A program made the position numbers and the translations under genes. 6,515 bases of DNA from Pseudomonadota bacterium (GTDB taxonomy: Bacteria > Pseudomonadota > Gammaproteobacteria > Steroidobacterales > Steroidobacteraceae), in the NCBI GenBank assembly GCA_021817875.1, contig JAKAFQ010000251.1:1-6515 (forward strand), written 5' to 3'. Below are positions 155-5,981 of this stretch, piece by piece. Under the pieces are notes generated by a model, which saw only the letters and a list, made by a program, of their open reading frames with translations, made no database searches and was not told the origin of the DNA. How positions within the stretch are numbered: position 1 is the first letter of the stretch; each line of letters begins with the position of its first letter.

Positions 155-1006
155 TCATAACTGGGGAACGGCTCCCTGGTTGACGGAATCGTAACGCGCT
201 TTGAATTCGATCGGGGTCAGGTCTTTGAGGCTCGAATGCGGACGGACGTGATTGAAGTGGCGACGCCAGATTTCGATGACGACCTTCGCTTCGGCGCGGC
301 TACGGAACCACTCCAGCGACAGGCACTCGTCTCGGAACTTGCCGTTGAAGCTCTCGTCAGCGCCGTTCTGCCAGGGTTTACCGGGGTCAATCAGCGCCGT
401 TTCGATGCGCTCCTTGGCGAGCCACTCGAGGATCGCGTGACTGACGAACTCGGGGCCGTTGTCCGAGCGAAGATAGCGCGGGGCGCCGCGCCCGGAGATC
501 AGGCGGCTCAGGATCTCGATCACGCGGCTCGAGCGAATGGAGCCGGCAACGTCGATCGCCAGGCACTCCCGGGTGAACTCGTCGATCACCGTCAGGCATT
601 TGAGCTTCTGGCCGTTGGCGCAGCCGTCGAACACGAAGTCGTAGGCCCAGACCTGGTTCGGGCCGAAGGCGGGCAGCGGCCGTGGACGTGATGCGGCCAC
701 ACGCCGGCGAGGCCGCCTACGGGGCAGCTGCAGCCCCGCCAGGCGCCACAGGCGATGCGCCCGGTGACGGCTCAGGCTGCGGCCTTCTCGTCTGAGGAAC
801 ACCCGAATCCTCCTGTAGCCGTAGCGCGGGTACTGTGCCGCCAAGCGCTTCATCGCCTCCAGCGTCGGCCGATCGCGCTCGGCACGGACAGACCGGTACC
901 CAAGCCCCGAGCGGGCAACGCCCATCAGCTCGCAAGCGCGCCGCTTCGAATGGCCGCGCTCGCAAGCGAGCGCGACCTGCTCGCGGCGCGCCTGCGAGCT
1001 CACCAC
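155..1006 (-). CDS. IS3-family transposase OrfB (integrase catalytic domain)
   Basis: This is the catalytic subunit of the IS3 transposase; it cuts and joins element ends, normally as an OrfAB fusion. The protein has 283 residues. An N-terminal helical region contains the HTH_21-like segment around [15 protein letters not shown] (residues 52-66). It is followed by an rve integrase core with D123 (WAYDF), D182 (RSDNGPEF) and E218 ([10 protein letters not shown]). The last two are 35 residues apart, giving the DD(35)E signature. The frame overlaps the end of orfA and lies in the -1 frame relative to it. It remains open upstream of the GTG at 1006, so the biologically relevant product is probably the frameshifted OrfAB rather than a separately started OrfB. 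No A6G-type slippery run is present; only a short GCGAAAG precedes the overlap. No disruptions are seen. Confidence 0.94.
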
Positions 1007-1263
1007 TTTCGCCGGTTGATCTCCTTCATCGTCTCGATCTCGAGATCGCGCTCGGCAACGAGCTTCTTCAACTTCGCGTTTTCGGCTTCGAGCTGGCGAA
1101 GCCGCTTCACGTCTGCGGGCTCCAGCGTTCCGAAGCGCTTCCTCCAGGTGTAGATGGTCTGCTCGCTGACCTTATGCTTCTTCGCGACATCGGCCACCGG
1201 CACCTTGTCGGCCTCTCGCAGGATCGCGACCATCTGTTCGTCGGTAAATCGGCTCTTCTTCAT
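1000..1263 (-). CDS. IS3-family transposase OrfA (HTH DNA-binding protein)
   Basis: This 87-residue protein binds the terminal repeats of the element and supplies the N-terminal part of the OrfAB fusion. The N-terminus MKKSRFTDEQMVAILRE and the following VSEQTIYTWRKRFG form the HTH_Tnp_1 helix-turn-helix, at roughly residues 5-50. Residues from about 58 onward (LRQLEAENAKLKKLVAERD) form a leucine-zipper-like coiled coil, as in IS407-group OrfA proteins. The start at 1263 is chosen because MKKSRF is the conserved family start and an AAAGGGAG ribosome-binding site lies just upstream. An in-frame ATG at 1299 would add 12 unconserved residues. The stop (1000-1002) overlaps the orfB start region, as expected for -1 frameshifting. 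Confidence 0.94.
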   Translation of the reverse strand: MKKSRFTDEQMVAILREADKVPVADVAKKHKVSEQTIYTWRKRFGTLEPADVKRLRQLEAENAKLKKLVAERDLEIETMKEINRRKW

Positions 1264-1308
1264 CGGCTCCCTTTCTGGCTGCGGGAGCCATTCTCTCAAG
1301 TTAAGATC

Positions 1309-2238: not shown

Positions 2239-2931
2239 TTACGCAGTGCCGGCCCTGTGTGACTTGAATATGGCCTCACAGAGACGTGTTCCAGCGCCGA
2301 CCATCTTAGCGAGAACGCGCAATTCCTCCTTACAGGCTAAAGTCTCGGAGGGCAGAGGGTAGTTGATCGCGTGGTCGATCTCTCCCCAAATCTCCTCGAA
2401 CAGCGTGCGGACTTGAATCTCGCATGAAATCGGCAACGTGTCATTCGGCTTTACGACATAGTGAACGCTGGTGTAGCGGCTCTCTTTGATCTGTGTGGAC
2501 AGTCCCAGATCCTGGTAGAACTGAACAGAATCGGGGTCCCAGGTATAGGCCATCGGAGTTTCAAAAAGAAACCAATGACCACCCTCTACCTGTTGATGGA
2601 TGGCGGCATTGATAGCGATGAATTGCGCCATGTGTAGATGAAGCACACGGACGCCGGCCAAGTCAGTTACCTCCTGGAAGAGGTTCTCGGTGTTAATGTC
2701 GCGATTCTCGTCGACCTTCTTGCGAACGATCTTTGAGCGTAAGTGGTCACGATCTTTCAGGCGAAATTTAACGGAGTGAATTGTAGGAAATGCTCCGGAG
2801 GCAAGCGTAGGGTGGGCCGCGAAGAAGTCACGTACTCCCGTCGCGAAGATTCTCAGATTGTGGCGCTGTTCTTCGTAGGCGGCGACGCATGCCTCGACAA
2901 TCTCTGGGTTTGGCGGAGGGTACGTGGCCAT
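2239..2931 (-). CDS. RelA/SpoT-domain protein (small alarmone synthetase-like)
   Basis: The protein has 230 residues and carries one RelA/SpoT nucleotidyltransferase domain with no HD hydrolase, TGS or ACT domain, the layout of small alarmone synthetases. Family landmarks in order are a basic ATP-binding stretch FRLKDRDHLRSKIVRK (56-71), the metal-binding aspartate in DLAGVRVLHL (D90), the G-loop-like RYTSVHYVV (Y153, H157), and EIQVRTLFEEIWGEIDH (E171, Q173, R175, H187). All the residues usually required for pyrophosphate transfer appear to be present. The family makes (p)ppGpp or related alarmones; a toxic subgroup (toxSAS) instead makes ppApp or pyrophosphorylates tRNA 3' ends. Sequence alone does not tell which applies. 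Its ATG shares one base with the stop of the upstream ParA gene (TAATG), so translation is very likely coupled; GGGGG lies 4 bases before the ATG. Confidence 0.9.
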   Translation of the reverse strand: MATYPPPNPEIVEACVAAYEEQRHNLRIFATGVRDFFAAHPTLASGAFPTIHSVKFRLKDRDHLRSKIVRKKVDENRDINTENLFQEVTDLAGVRVLHLHMAQFIAINAAIHQQVEGGHWFLFETPMAYTWDPDSVQFYQDLGLSTQIKESRYTSVHYVVKPNDTLPISCEIQVRTLFEEIWGEIDHAINYPLPSETLACKEELRVLAKMVGAGTRLCEAIFKSHRAGTA

Positions 2932-3923
2932 TAGACCCCCATACGGCGTGTTATCAAGCGAGCGATATCGAGGAACCGCTCATGCAGAGCATCGATCGTA
3001 GGATAGTGACCACTATTCACATGCCCGCGCAGTTTGCTTACGGGAAGGCCTTTCTCTTGACTTGCGGCTGCAAGACTGTGGATGTCGGGAACGTCGCCAA
3101 GCTTAAATGGTGGAGCCGCGGGAACTAGGTCGGCACTTATGCGCTTGAGCTCGTCCACAACGCGACTCTTAACACGTGAGGGGATCATTCGTTCCCAGTA
3201 CTCGTGCGGCTTCGCCTTGCGACCACCATATGTTTGGTAGGCGGAGGCGACGTACCCGAGAAATTGCGGACTCCCCAGCAACAGAGTCTTCTTTGCCGTG
3301 GGGCTTGCCAATTGACGTACGGTGCCCCAGTCTTGAACCCACTTCGAAATCGAGTGGCCGACGGTTGAGAGCGCACGTAGCGAGTAAAGGTCCGTGTGAA
3401 CAGGAGTAATGAAGAAATCGCTATCCAGCAACAGTGCACGGTTCAACGGCCCGACATTTGGTCCCACGTCGTACATAACAATGTCGGCGCCCACTTGCTC
3501 TGCAATCGTTCTGGCTACCTTTGCCATCGCACCCATTACTGAATACCCGCGCGACTTGCGCGCAAACGACTCCGTCCATGCCGCTGGCAACTCTTCTTCG
3601 TACTGGGCGAGTAACACGTCGCCGACGAGAAGTGATACACCGTCGCGAATTTCAATGGGGTCAATATCTTTGACGTCACCCGTTCCGTGAACGACCGGCT
3701 CGACTGACGACCAAAGGGTCTGGCCGTCTTCTGACCCTGCAGACTCGCCGAGCAAGGTATCCAGATTGTCTTCGGGGAGATAAAACGCGGATAAGTTACA
3801 TTGCGGGTCGGTATCGACGAGTAGAACCTTCTTGCCGAGATCCGCAAAGGCGTCCGCAAGGTGGATTGTTAGCGTTGTCTTTCCAACGCCGCCCTTATGG
3901 TTGAACAGTGTGAGTGTCTTCAT
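2931..3923 (-). CDS. ParA/MinD-type P-loop ATPase
   Basis: The protein has 330 residues. The N-terminus carries a deviant Walker A motif, HKGGVGKTT (9-17), with the signature lysine K10. A second ATPase motif, VDTDPQ, lies at 36-41 and the Walker B region DIVMYDVGPN at 147-156 (D152). These are features of the dimerising ParA/Soj/MinD class that moves DNA or protein complexes. It is longer than a typical chromosomal ParA, with extra sequence between 60 and 130 and a distinctive C-terminal half (GSPQFLGYVASAYQTYGG, 217-234). No parB gene or obvious parS repeat is seen, so a standard partition role is doubtful. Its stop overlaps the start of the RelA/SpoT-domain gene, making a two-gene unit. 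The start at 3923 is supported by GAGGGG at 3932-3937, 8 bases upstream. The upstream 350 bp hold a tRNA-like element and several inverted repeats. Confidence 0.92.
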   Translation of the reverse strand: MKTLTLFNHKGGVGKTTLTIHLADAFADLGKKVLLVDTDPQCNLSAFYLPEDNLDTLLGESAGSEDGQTLWSSVEPVVHGTGDVKDIDPIEIRDGVSLLVGDVLLAQYEEELPAAWTESFARKSRGYSVMGAMAKVARTIAEQVGADIVMYDVGPNVGPLNRALLLDSDFFITPVHTDLYSLRALSTVGHSISKWVQDWGTVRQLASPTAKKTLLLGSPQFLGYVASAYQTYGGRKAKPHEYWERMIPSRVKSRVVDELKRISADLVPAAPPFKLGDVPDIHSLAAASQEKGLPVSKLRGHVNSGHYPTIDALHERFLDIARLITRRMGV

Positions 3924-3962: not shown

Positions 3963-4049
3963 GGCATATATCCTGACGGGCGTCGGTAAGGCGCTGGCGG
4001 TCTCCCTGTAGGCACTTCTTCGCCAAGTCTCTCGCGGACCTTGAGAGAT

Positions 4050-4126
4050 TCGTACGCGTGATTGGACTCGAACCGACGACCCCTACCACTTCAAGGGTGG
4101 TGCCCTCCGGTTGGTGCAAGCGCCGT
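4050..4126 (-). other. Degenerate tRNA-like sequence (tRNA pseudogene or attachment-site remnant)
   Basis: The minus strand can be laid out as a 77-base tRNA. It has T8, a D arm GCAC/GGGC with G18G19 and A21 in the loop, a 5-bp anticodon stem ACCAC/GTGGT around the loop CCTTGAA, and a clear T arm with loop TTCGAGT and closing G-C pairs. The 3' half closely resembles proteobacterial tRNA-Val from memory (CACCAC...GGGGTCG...GGTTCGAGTCCAAT). Defects are also clear. The acceptor 3' strand CACGCGT pairs with the 5' side at only about three positions, one T-stem pair is C-A, position 33 is C instead of the usual T, the variable loop is two bases long, and the end is ACGA rather than ACCA. It is therefore unlikely to be a working tRNA. 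It lies in operon orientation, 126 bp before the ATPase start. Confidence 0.55.
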
Positions 4127-4130
4127 TTGC

Positions 4131-4157
4131 GCCCCCCGTTTGAGTAACACGGGGGGC
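4131..4157. repeat. Perfect 9-bp GC-rich hairpin
   Basis: GCCCCCCGT (4131-4139) and ACGGGGGGC (4149-4157) are perfect complements around a 9-base loop TTGAGTAAC. No T-run follows on either strand, so it is not a standard Rho-independent terminator. On the minus strand it directly precedes the tRNA-like element. The loop sequence GAGTAAC is also complementary to GTTACTC at 4202-4208. Confidence 0.75.
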
Positions 4158-4166
4158 TACCGCTTC

Positions 4167-4172
4167 ATTCTA
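4167..4172 (-). promoter_or_regulatory. Possible -10 box before the hairpin and tRNA-like element
   Basis: TAGAAT on the minus strand, one mismatch from TATAAT. A start about 7 bases downstream would give an RNA opening with the 4131-4157 hairpin, followed by the tRNA-like sequence and the ATPase gene. The -35 region is poor. Confidence 0.25.
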
Positions 4173-4192
4173 AGCTCATTGCGAAGATCAGC

Positions 4193-4246
4193 GGCTAGCC
4201 CGTTACTCATCTGCGGCCTCGCGTAACGACTAGGAACCAGCTAGCC
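4193..4246. repeat. Nested inverted repeats in the nuclease-ATPase gap
   Basis: The outer arms GGCTAGC (4193-4199) and GCTAGCC (4240-4246) are perfect complements. Inside them, CGTTAC (4201-4206) and GTAACG (4223-4228) also pair. The inner left arm overlaps GTTACTCA (4202-4209), which is complementary to TGAGTAAC at 4141-4148, so two alternative pairings are possible. The stretch could be a structured RNA, an operator or a recombination site; nothing in it identifies which. Confidence 0.5.
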
Positions 4247-4273
4247 TCTCTGTTGAGGTGCCCGCTGACCATC

Positions 4274-5209
4274 CTAAAGCGGCACCTCCTTCAACGGTCC
4301 CAGCTGATACAGCGCATCATAAAGTTGCTGGTAGCTCCTGAGCGGTGCCGGCGTCTGGCCAGGCAGCCTCTGAATTTCCGCAGCCGCCTTCCCAAGCCGC
4401 ACGAGGACGTCCGGCATCGCCGAATCGGGGACGGCCTTCACGTGCGCGCCGCGATAGTTGGAGACGACAGCGCGAATGGCTCCGGGAAGATGCGCCTCGT
4501 CGACGCTGCCGTCCGCCTTCCGGAACGGCAGTTTCCAGGTGAGAGGTTTGGACGCATCGCCGACGTAGGCGAAGCACTCGGCGGGCAGCTTGTACTTCGG
4601 ATGCAGCAAGACGCCGTCCGCGATCGAGGAAGTCGAACTTTCGGGCGTCGACGGCGCTGGGCCGGGCGGAGCACCTTCCGCCGTGCCCAAGACCTTGGCC
4701 GGACGATAGATGCCGTCCACGCTCAGCCACCACGCGTCGAGGGAATATGTGGGAGCGTCGAGCAAGAGGCGGGCGCGCGGCTGATAGCCCCCGTGCAAGA
4801 TGTCCACGGCATAGAAGAGCGTGCCGTCGCTCACGGCGATTGAGCGCACGCGCTGCTCATCGGCATAGCGGCGAGCCTGCGCCAACGCGCCGTGCAACGA
4901 AGGCTGGTCCCACCGGAGCGCCCCCGGCCGCTTCACTTCGACGAGCAGGCGCTTGATGCCTTGCTTCGTCAGGACGATGTCAGCGTACTGGAGCTGGTTG
5001 TTGAGGTCGCCGACGCTCCAGTCGAGCGCGATGGTGAACAGGTCTTCGACGATGTTCTCGGCCACTTTTTCCGCGGCCACGCCGTTCCGCTCCTGCTGGG
5101 CGAGGCGCGACTGGCGCTGGCGCAGGAACGCGGGCCACGACTCCGGCAGCCGGGCCGTGAATTTCCGGAAAGTGGCGAGGCCGTCCGAGTGGACAGCTTT
5201 GTCGTTCAT
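4274..5209 (-). CDS. PD-(D/E)XK nuclease-like protein
   Basis: The protein has 311 residues. The central part matches the PD-(D/E)XK nuclease core as seen at the N-terminus of type I restriction HsdR proteins. An acidic helix EKVAENIVEDLF (47-58) is followed by YADIVL (D77) and then LLVEVKRPG (E91, K93), with a helix containing QARRY (Q111, Y115) behind. The C-terminal 150 residues are not recognised and include a Pro/Ser-rich linker near 190-205. No helicase, methylase or specificity subunit is nearby, so the target is unknown; it may be a stand-alone nuclease or a degenerate relative. The ATG at 5209 is preferred because a plausible promoter sits just upstream and because upstream in-frame codons would overlap the divergent oxidoreductase gene. 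The ribosome-binding site is weak. It is followed on the same strand, after a 350-bp structured gap, by the ParA-type ATPase gene. Confidence 0.75.
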   Translation of the reverse strand: MNDKAVHSDGLATFRKFTARLPESWPAFLRQRQSRLAQQERNGVAAEKVAENIVEDLFTIALDWSVGDLNNQLQYADIVLTKQGIKRLLVEVKRPGALRWDQPSLHGALAQARRYADEQRVRSIAVSDGTLFYAVDILHGGYQPRARLLLDAPTYSLDAWWLSVDGIYRPAKVLGTAEGAPPGPAPSTPESSTSSIADGVLLHPKYKLPAECFAYVGDASKPLTWKLPFRKADGSVDEAHLPGAIRAVVSNYRGAHVKAVPDSAMPDVLVRLGKAAAEIQRLPGQTPAPLRSYQQLYDALYQLGPLKEVPL

Positions 5210-5242
5210 CGCGGCAATGGCAGATACCGCTGTCTCGCCGCC

Positions 5243-5271
5243 CTTATATCCCCAAATATGAAAATTGGCCA
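5243..5271 (-). promoter_or_regulatory. Probable promoter of the nuclease-like gene
   Basis: On the minus strand, TGGCCA (5266-5271) is followed after 17 bp by TATAAG (5243-5248), a partial sigma-70 match in an AT-rich island between GC-rich genes. Transcription would start near 5236, leaving a short leader before the ATG at 5209. The -35 box matches the consensus at four of six positions. Confidence 0.4.
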
Positions 5272-5343
5272 GACGGCTTCTCTGCAACCGCCGACGCGCT
5301 ATTCGCCGCGGTCCGCCGCACCGCGCACGACCGCACAGAGCTT

Positions 5344-5436
5344 TGCTGCAGATCAAACAGACCCCTGGCACTGCCGTCGTACATTCCACCGAGCGAAGCG
5401 CGGCATCGGCGAAGGGACCTATCGTGCTGCAGATCA
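5344..5436 (+). repeat. 12-bp direct repeat TGCTGCAGATCA
   Basis: The copies are at 5344-5355 and 5425-5436, 81 bp apart. The second begins at base 2 of the GTG start codon of the oxidoreductase gamma-subunit gene. It may be a chance repeat or a small duplication of the gene's 5' end. Confidence 0.5.
5411..5417 (+). promoter_or_regulatory. Ribosome-binding site of the oxidoreductase gamma-subunit gene
   Basis: GAAGGGA ends 6 bases before the GTG at 5424. It supports this start over an in-frame ATG far upstream. Confidence 0.7.
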
Positions 5437-5981
5437 TCATCCAGGGGCGGGGCGGGCAGGGCGCGCAGACCGCCGGCAACTTGCTCGCCATGGCGTTCTT
5501 CGCGCAAGGGCGCCAGGTGCAGAGCTTCGCCAGCTACGGCGGCGCGCGGCGCGGGACCCCGGTCAGCTCCTACATTCGCATCGACGACCGCCCGATCCGG
5601 GCGCGCTGCGACATCGAGCAGGCCGACGCGATCCTGTGCTTCGACGCGAGCCTGCTCGAGGCACGCCTGCTCGCGGCGGCGCGCCCGGACACGCTGATCG
5701 TGGTCAATTCGGCGCGCGAGCCGCAGCACTTCGCCGCCGCGCTGCCCGGCTACACGGTCATCCCGGTGGACGGCATCGGGGTGGCGCGGCGCCTTGGCCT
5801 TGGCCGGATCGTCAATTCGGTGCTGCTCGGGGCGTTCGCGCGCGCGCTCGCCGCGCCGCCGCTCGAAGCGCTCGAGCGCACGATCGCGGAGCAGGCGCCC
5901 AAGCTCCAGCGCGAGAACGTCGCCGCCTGCGCGGAAGGCTATCGCCGGGTGGACGCGCAACTGCAAGAGCTTGCAGCATGA
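5424..5981 (+). CDS. 2-oxoacid:ferredoxin oxidoreductase (POR-type), gamma subunit
   Basis: The 185-residue protein, the usual size for a separate gamma subunit, belongs to the pyruvate/ketoisovalerate oxidoreductase catalytic-domain family. This subunit helps form the coenzyme-A-binding part of enzymes that decarboxylate 2-oxoacids to acyl-CoA and pass electrons to ferredoxin. The N-terminus LQIIIQGRGGQGAQTAGNLL carries the hallmark GRGGQG (residues 8-13). Next come SYGGARRGTPVSSYIRI, characteristic of the gamma subunit, and the ADAILCFDASLL strand. The GTG start is supported by GAAGGGA six bases upstream and by alignment with the conserved N-terminus. Its TGA overlaps the next ATG (ATGA), so the two genes are translationally coupled. 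The substrate cannot be told from this subunit. Strong GC bias at third positions matches a native high-GC chromosome, unlike the ATPase region. Confidence 0.9.
   Translation: MLQIIIQGRGGQGAQTAGNLLAMAFFAQGRQVQSFASYGGARRGTPVSSYIRIDDRPIRARCDIEQADAILCFDASLLEARLLAAARPDTLIVVNSAREPQHFAAALPGYTVIPVDGIGVARRLGLGRIVNSVLLGAFARALAAPPLEALERTIAEQAPKLQRENVAACAEGYRRVDAQLQELAA

Follow-up and report, generated by a model that had tools for sequence, protein, structure and literature searches.

Why should a ParA-like ATPase be encoded directly before an enzyme of the RelA/SpoT class? The question is raised by a window of 6,515 nucleotides (the whole stretch of DNA that was analysed), which carries both genes intact on its minus strand. 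The first gene of the pair (3923..2931) encodes a ParA-like ATPase of 330 aa that matched Pfam AAA_31 (E 6.1e-24) and phrog_164 (E 2.7e-37), and the second (2931..2239) encodes a nucleotidyltransferase of 230 aa with a RelA/SpoT domain (Pfam RelA_SpoT PF04607, 57.1 bits against a cut-off of 27 bits). The stop codon TAA of the ATPase and the start codon ATG of the enzyme overlap by a single A at the TAATG junction (2929..2933, minus strand), the junction sequence in the window being GGGGGTCTAATGGCC. The shared base recorded in the first-pass annotation was thereby confirmed, but its reading as stoichiometric expression was not borne out, as an overlap of one base suggests coupling without implying equal amounts of the two proteins. 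None of the six window ORFs scanned with Pfam was ParB-like, in agreement with the earlier statement that no parB is seen. Downstream of the pair lies an IS3-family element (1299..155, with OrfA at 1299..1000 and OrfB at 1006..155), bordered by inverted arms of 16 nt that are 94% complementary (125-140 and 1320-1335). An ORF downstream of the enzyme gene (1611-2279) had no Pfam match, and an alternative start at 2051 would give it a signal-peptide-like N-terminus. The stretch 4057-4119 on the minus strand resembles the 3' half of a tRNA by eye; ARAGORN reported no tRNA there and Rfam nothing over its thresholds.

Conservation of the pair in other genomes had been proposed as a check, and the pair was indeed conserved. 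A protein search at E 1e-3 returned 2734 sequences related to the enzyme and 2920 related to the ATPase. An enzyme-only alignment was used to fetch loci (the best 80 of 166 confirmed genome stretches, and 28 viral-contig loci), and the pair was counted in 99 loci, i.e. L001-L098 of this set and the window. An ATPase sequence was present within 60 nt upstream of the enzyme, on the same strand, in 96 of the 99 loci, at least six of which (L003, L018, L031, L068, L071, L082) have a partial ATPase or a broken frame. The three exceptions were L076 (ATPase at 134 nt), L078 (at 1153 nt) and L080, the sole locus where none was found, which encodes an enzyme homologue of 474 aa (6310-7734). Junction types varied, a possible 4-nt overlap being the commonest (25 loci), followed by overlaps of 8 nt (9) and 1 nt (7); the start codon closest to a 1-nt overlap was taken in this count, which therefore favours the 1-nt class. 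No ATPase of the window's kind was seen beside the ten most distant viral enzyme loci (L099-L108), so the linkage does not extend to RelA/SpoT proteins generally. Enzymes only 33-44% identical to that of the window still follow an ATPase at three loci fetched by the ATPase (L325, L328, L352).

The best 80 genome loci, many of them from metagenome bins, fall in 10 named phyla including archaea: Pseudomonadota (37), Bacteroidota (16), Bacillota (9), Poribacteria (7), Acidobacteriota, Campylobacterota and Methanobacteriota (2 each), and Myxococcota, Elusimicrobiota and Thermodesulfobacteriota (1 each), with 2 loci unassigned. The pair was seen on contigs titled Methanothrix harundinacea and Euryarchaeota archaeon (L039, L065); these are metagenome bins, so that the archaeal assignment may be wrong. 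Pairwise distances of the ATPases correlated with those of the enzymes (Mantel r 0.78 for 84 pairs, the highest of 2000 permutations giving 0.10; r 0.55 between phyla), and the two proteins therefore travel together. The outer neighbours do not recur, any neighbour family beyond the pair being present in at most 8 of 109 loci.

The genes that follow relatives of the ATPase were examined in viral contigs and in cellular genomes. Two ATPase alignments served as queries against viral contigs, and the best 80 of 87 and the best 80 of 383 matches were kept; the alignments were built partly from enzyme-linked ATPases, and the scans therefore favour that type. Clustering of the downstream genes at L109-L270 gave RelA/SpoT proteins at 21 loci, SIR2 proteins at 20, HEPN proteins at 15 and a cyclase-like protein at 3, some contigs having been fetched twice. 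A census of the downstream side only, covering 120 distinct ATPases of at least 300 aa from L110-L270 (viral contigs and five phage or plasmid loci), assigned RelA/SpoT partners to 19, SIR2 to 19, HEPN to 14, cyclase-like to 3 and a PglZ-like partner to 1; the remainder were partnerless, i.e. had no frame of at least 160 aa close downstream (51), not assessable (7) or unassigned (6). Among 38 cellular loci, the partners were RelA/SpoT (5), SIR2 (3), HEPN (3) and cyclase-like (1), whereas 13 loci had none or one below 120 aa, and 13 were unassigned, a group in which some look like restriction-type proteins and others like spurious frames. Two of the five cellular RelA/SpoT loci (L320, L350) belong to centre genomes chosen for the pair, so the unbiased count is 3 of 36. 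Since 51 of the 120 ATPases and 13 of the 38 cellular loci have no downstream partner, a partner is not obligatory.

Ten partner proteins were scanned with Pfam, which identified SIR2_2 (E 2.5e-23 and 5.6e-26) and HEPN_RiboL-PSP (1.7e-7 to 9.5e-10) and found nothing in the cyclase-like partner, the name of which rests on an FxDxxGF motif recognised by eye. The two SIR2 partners scanned also matched models of Thoeris ThsA (E 2.1e-18 and 1.2e-21), Dsr and LmuA. The SIR2 motif patterns were kept in 19, 19 and 12 of the 19 SIR2 partners, and Rx4H in all 14 HEPN partners. When the ATPases were placed in a tree, the SIR2-linked rows formed one clade (99), while the RelA/SpoT-linked rows were found in two places, a main clade and the window's clade, the latter mixed with partnerless members. 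A single clade of all RelA/SpoT-linked ATPases was rejected (p-AU 7e-43) in a test run without five rows, three of them long (L184, L260, L121) together with L264 and L266. The deviant Walker A residues K10, G11, G12, V13, K15 and T17 were invariant in 14 rows that covered four partner types and one partnerless ATPase.

Several single loci deserve a record. Filamentous phage Pf1 (AY324828.1, L111) has, after its ParA-like Orf317, a frame of 175 aa (4019-4546) that matches HEPN_RiboL-PSP (E 2.4e-9) and is unannotated in the record. On a Salmonella plasmid (L113, 2905-5919) a DNA methyltransferase, an ATPase and a SIR2 gene are consecutive, the last two overlapping by 4 nt. A family ATPase overlaps a protein of 771 aa that matches PglZ weakly (E 2.8e-5, narrowly missing the cut-off) at L221 (5978-8293), which recalls BREX, and family ATPases of two cellular loci (L332, L355) precede long frames that look restriction-modification or helicase-like by eye. 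Partnerless ATPases often come after a phage CI-type repressor gene (L110, 3495-4568, and other viral loci); this was so for 21 of the 51 in the census, assigned by eye, and Salmonella phage ST160 has one small gene between the repressor and the partnerless ATPase. Such a position resembles that of lambda rexAB.

Some relatives of the pair occupy a defined site in prophages. In a P2-like prophage of E. coli J31, an ATPase and RelA/SpoT pair is flanked by a DinI-family gene and the portal gene; the corresponding interval of a prophage of E. coli 2014C-3307 has an ATPase and SIR2 cassette, likewise ahead of the portal gene. Identity between the two prophages is 95.5% in the 4937 nt that precede the cassettes and 96.3% in the 4121 nt that follow them, and the two ATPases are 29% identical to each other. 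The gpA-gpQ interval of P2-like phages is a hotspot of anti-phage systems (Rousset et al. 2022, PMC9122126), and that paper also places non-defence cargo and a 'putative plasmid partitioning system' in P2 hotspots. Occupancy of the hotspot was observed for relatives, not for the window pair itself. Among L001-L270 and the window, 13 distinct records, several of them near-identical to one another, have a portal gene no more than 1.3 kb from the ATPase (9 with RelA/SpoT, 3 with SIR2 and 1 with HEPN), and five more have it farther away. Within E. coli, a DNA match to the RelA/SpoT type was present in 7 of 5426 genomes and to a SIR2-type query in 27, the latter in two identity groups of 12 and 15; in the one genome examined per group, the ATPase had a SIR2 partner in the group of 12 and was partnerless in the group of 15. 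A second SIR2-type cassette used as query gave no match in E. coli. At L297, the SIR2 gene (7004-7876) could start 78 nt before its annotated start codon, at an in-frame ATG (position 7004) that overlaps the ATPase stop by 4 nt. Another E. coli P2-like prophage (L298, 4982-6040) carries a partnerless family ATPase between ogr-type and tail-region genes; the same short match was present in 15 of 5426 genomes, one of which was examined.

Known defence genes were sought around the pair with PADLOC at 42 loci of at least 20 kb, by comparing neighbours within 3 kb with those 6-9 kb away. The frames scanned were of 120-900 aa (125 of 187 near, 125 of 143 far); selection by length means that spurious frames are among them, and a protein that matched two model names may have been counted twice. 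Near the pair there were at least 9 member-hits, counted over 25 of the 37 model families, as compared to 5 far from it, for 125 proteins each. Enrichment of the pair near known defence genes was thus weak, and we gave this contrast no weight because the difference is small. PADLOC had no full-length match to either window protein. The ORF upstream of the pair (5491..4274), earlier called a nuclease gene, matched HSDR_N with 20.5 bits, under the Pfam cut-off of 25.1. The argument for defence from the insertion sequence and this gene was therefore not supported, PADLOC models being hardly commoner near the pair.

Taken together, we consider it probable (about 0.6) that the two genes form a mobile abortive-infection (anti-phage) module, in which the ATPase would be the gate or sensor and the RelA/SpoT enzyme one interchangeable effector. 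The frequency of partnerless ATPases, the weak enrichment beside known defence genes, the lack of a full-length PADLOC match and the other cargo of P2 hotspots count against it. The ATPase, encoded first, would act as an ATP-dependent switch that silences the enzyme in healthy cells; upon sensing infection it would release the enzyme, which would pyrophosphorylate a nucleotide or an RNA as acceptor and arrest growth before the phage multiplies. Toxicity of the enzyme, gating by the ATPase, the phage trigger and the pyrophosphotransfer chemistry are what we infer for the module. That the ATPase gates a harmful enzyme is suggested by the enzyme being nearly always with an ATPase while the ATPase is often partnerless, by the regulator being encoded first and closely coupled, and by the sister partners SIR2 and HEPN being of classes used in abortive infection. 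HEPN enzymes act in abortive infection. The present data fit both inhibition at rest and activation upon infection. The earlier proposal of an anti-phage switch, as far as it concerns a putative defence role regulated by the ATPase, is favoured by the SIR2 and HEPN partners of the ATPase kin and by the P2 prophage slot.

An undescribed modular defence system seems likely because the pair is conserved and mobile, its kin carry other putative suicide enzymes, and some pairs occupy a prophage defence slot. We put at even odds the wider reading of an undescribed immune superfamily that occurs in bacteria and archaea, in P2-like prophages, filamentous Pf1 and others, with a ParA-like ATPase as sensor or gate and a plug-in killing step. 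The ATPase family would then be a common chassis with swappable effectors, killing by RelA/SpoT pyrophosphotransfer, by SIR2 cleavage of NAD, by HEPN cleavage of RNA or by a cyclase-like enzyme, and the partnerless ATPases after prophage repressor genes may be superinfection-exclusion versions. No description of the pair was found among the titles and abstract openings screened in open-licence PubMed Central papers; the table of 169 systems that belongs to PMC9122126 may list such cassettes.

The same pair could also be a type II-like toxin-antitoxin addiction module, with the enzyme as toxin and the ATPase as antitoxin, which stabilises mobile DNA rather than sensing phage. Regulator-first order, close coupling, an enzyme almost never found without its ATPase and non-recurrent outer neighbours would all agree with it. 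We nevertheless hold it to be rather unlikely, since homologues of the enzyme were present in only 7 of 72,556 plasmid records (at most 47.2% identical), relatives occupy the prophage defence slot, and partnerless ATPases are common.

The enzyme itself was examined for its motifs, fold and relationships. The only Pfam domain found in it was PF04607, a synthetase domain, without a hydrolase domain. The synthetase motif TDLAGVR is at 2647..2667 (minus strand; residues 89-95), with T89, D90, L91, G93 and R95 invariant in 31 aligned rows; Asp90 presumably binds Mg, a catalytic role that we assume after RSH enzymes. YTSVHY (2458..2475, minus strand; residues 153-158) has its pattern kept in 110 of 112 family proteins and includes Tyr153, presumably the base-stacking residue. 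EIQVRT (2404..2421, minus strand; residues 171-176) has E171, Q173, V174, R175 and T176 invariant in the 31-row alignment, Glu171 being taken by us as a catalytic residue. Between the first two motifs, the loop AYTWDPD (2530..2550, minus strand; residues 128-134) is specific to the family: in the alignment, the RelP/RelQ-type references read KDY, RDY or TDY ahead of the GY..H motif, where the family has AY(T/S)WDP and a longer spacer. The (T/S)WD loop was present in 111 of 112 distinct family proteins and KDY in 2 of 112. As the KDY-type loop is replaced, the acceptor of the enzyme cannot be foretold. The AF2 model of the enzyme (mean pLDDT 91.7) had RelP/RelQ as its closest folds, the best PDB match being RelP 6ewz (E 2.5e-10) and CapRel ranking 27th.

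In a quick tree with long branches, the enzyme family was separated from the RelP/RelQ-type references, for which four small synthetases from two Bacillota genomes were taken, and from CapRel SJ46, the only toxSAS in the tree and itself on a very long branch. The family thus appears to lie outside both, a position that does not settle its kinship with toxSAS, and, on the tree check proposed earlier, it did not fall in a housekeeping clade. The trees were thinned in the main ATPase type, every third enzyme row being kept in the reference tree and every second in a test of origin. For the enzymes that accompany window-type ATPases, a single origin was not rejected (p-AU 0.43), and repeated transfer of the enzyme is therefore not claimed.

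A cellular stress-response alarmone synthetase, placed or tuned by the ATPase and without a role in conflict, would explain the intact catalytic motifs and the RelP/RelQ-like fold. This appears improbable in view of the separation from the RelP/RelQ-type references in the tree, the replaced loop and the SIR2 and HEPN partners of the ATPase kin. Its occurrence also argues against such a role: among 247 genomes from the order of Edwardsiella a full-length ATPase of the enzyme-linked type came solely from the centre genome itself, and G292 gave a partial match, the genome searches having scored the best few candidates per genome. A housekeeping synthetase was rejected because the loop is replaced, the occurrence is rare and the enzyme is linked to the ATPase.

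The window ATPase carries the superfamily hallmark of ParA/MinD, a deviant Walker A with a signature lysine, as KGGVGKTT at 3873..3896 on the minus strand (residues 10-17, signature lysine K10). Its AF2 model (mean pLDDT 82.0) had 3pg5 (DIP2308) as the best PDB fold match (E 6.7e-18), followed by Soj. Comparison of the family profile (A3) with PDB sequences gave 3pg5 over 1-345 of 366 residues (E 3.3e-53), whereas for the other 58 PDB chains among the matches listed the best stretch ends by profile residue 67. Family matches of at least 156 bits were present in at least 19 of 369 genomes from the class of a Pseudomonas reinekei locus and in at least 19 of 296 from the phylum of a Mucilaginibacter locus, centre genomes included; among the matches listed in both samples, the next best had 136 bits in a 756-aa frame (L339) and the remainder at most 115 bits, mostly over residues 1-200. 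The ATPases are thus a discrete family, separate from Soj-type ParA in sequence-profile searches and sharing its fold. A window-type ATPase was present in 1 of 249 Burkholderiaceae genomes, beside which a partner was not recognised, and a search of plasmids with a Burkholderia window-type ATPase (P0214) at E 1e-60 gave no match.

Partition or positioning, in which the ATPase would serve to segregate a phage or plasmid, with the enzyme as a bystander or a substitute for ParB, has in its favour the ParA fold, the naming of phrog_164 as a ParA-like partition protein and the putative partitioning system of P2-like phages (Rousset 2022, PMC9122126), but is very improbable as an enzyme rather than a DNA-binding adaptor follows the ATPase, the only long PDB sequence match is 3pg5, family scores (at least 156 bits) stand above those of other ParA-like matches listed in the two genome samples (at most 136), and few plasmid records have the enzyme. 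Plasmid partition as the main reading was accordingly rejected, there being no adjacent ParB and the family lying apart from Soj-type ParA by sequence profile.

If the abortive-infection reading is true, ParA-type ATPases, known for moving DNA or placing proteins, would also be gatekeepers of suicide enzymes, and prophage genes annotated as 'ParA family protein' would be tied to immunity, not partition. The product of an unusual RelA/SpoT enzyme with a replaced loop becomes a testable question, as does whether a shared ATPase chassis responds to one trigger irrespective of the effector it carries. A natural swap experiment is provided by the two E. coli prophages, which differ in their cassettes and are nearly identical in backbone.

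Among known systems, RelP and RelQ are the best structural matches of the enzyme and share its catalytic motifs, while the window family differs by its (T/S)WD loop and its ATPase partner. RelP and RelQ are stand-alone genes. The SIR2 effectors Thoeris ThsA, Dsr and Lamassu LmuA, whose models were matched by the two SIR2 partners scanned, differ from the SIR2 proteins described here in that the latter have a ParA-like ATPase as partner; Thoeris, Dsr and Lamassu use other sensors. CapRel SJ46 and other toxSAS (FaRel2, PhRel) have, like the window enzyme, a RelA/SpoT synthetase domain and an association with mobile elements. For CapRel SJ46, activation by phage proteins is described, and no ParA-like partner is mentioned in the portions consulted (PMC12691689). 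Unlike the window pair, CapRel SJ46 is a single protein of 373 aa, and it is distant from the window enzyme in tree and fold ranking. On the ATPase side, the family's one long PDB match, 3pg5, is DIP2308 of Corynebacterium diphtheriae, a structural-genomics entry titled 'uncharacterized protein'. ParA/Soj proteins resemble the window ATPase in overall fold and in Walker A and the motifs near it, but match it in sequence in short stretches only; no ParB was seen beside the window pair, and the place of a ParB-type adaptor is taken by the RelA/SpoT enzyme in 96 of the 99 loci.
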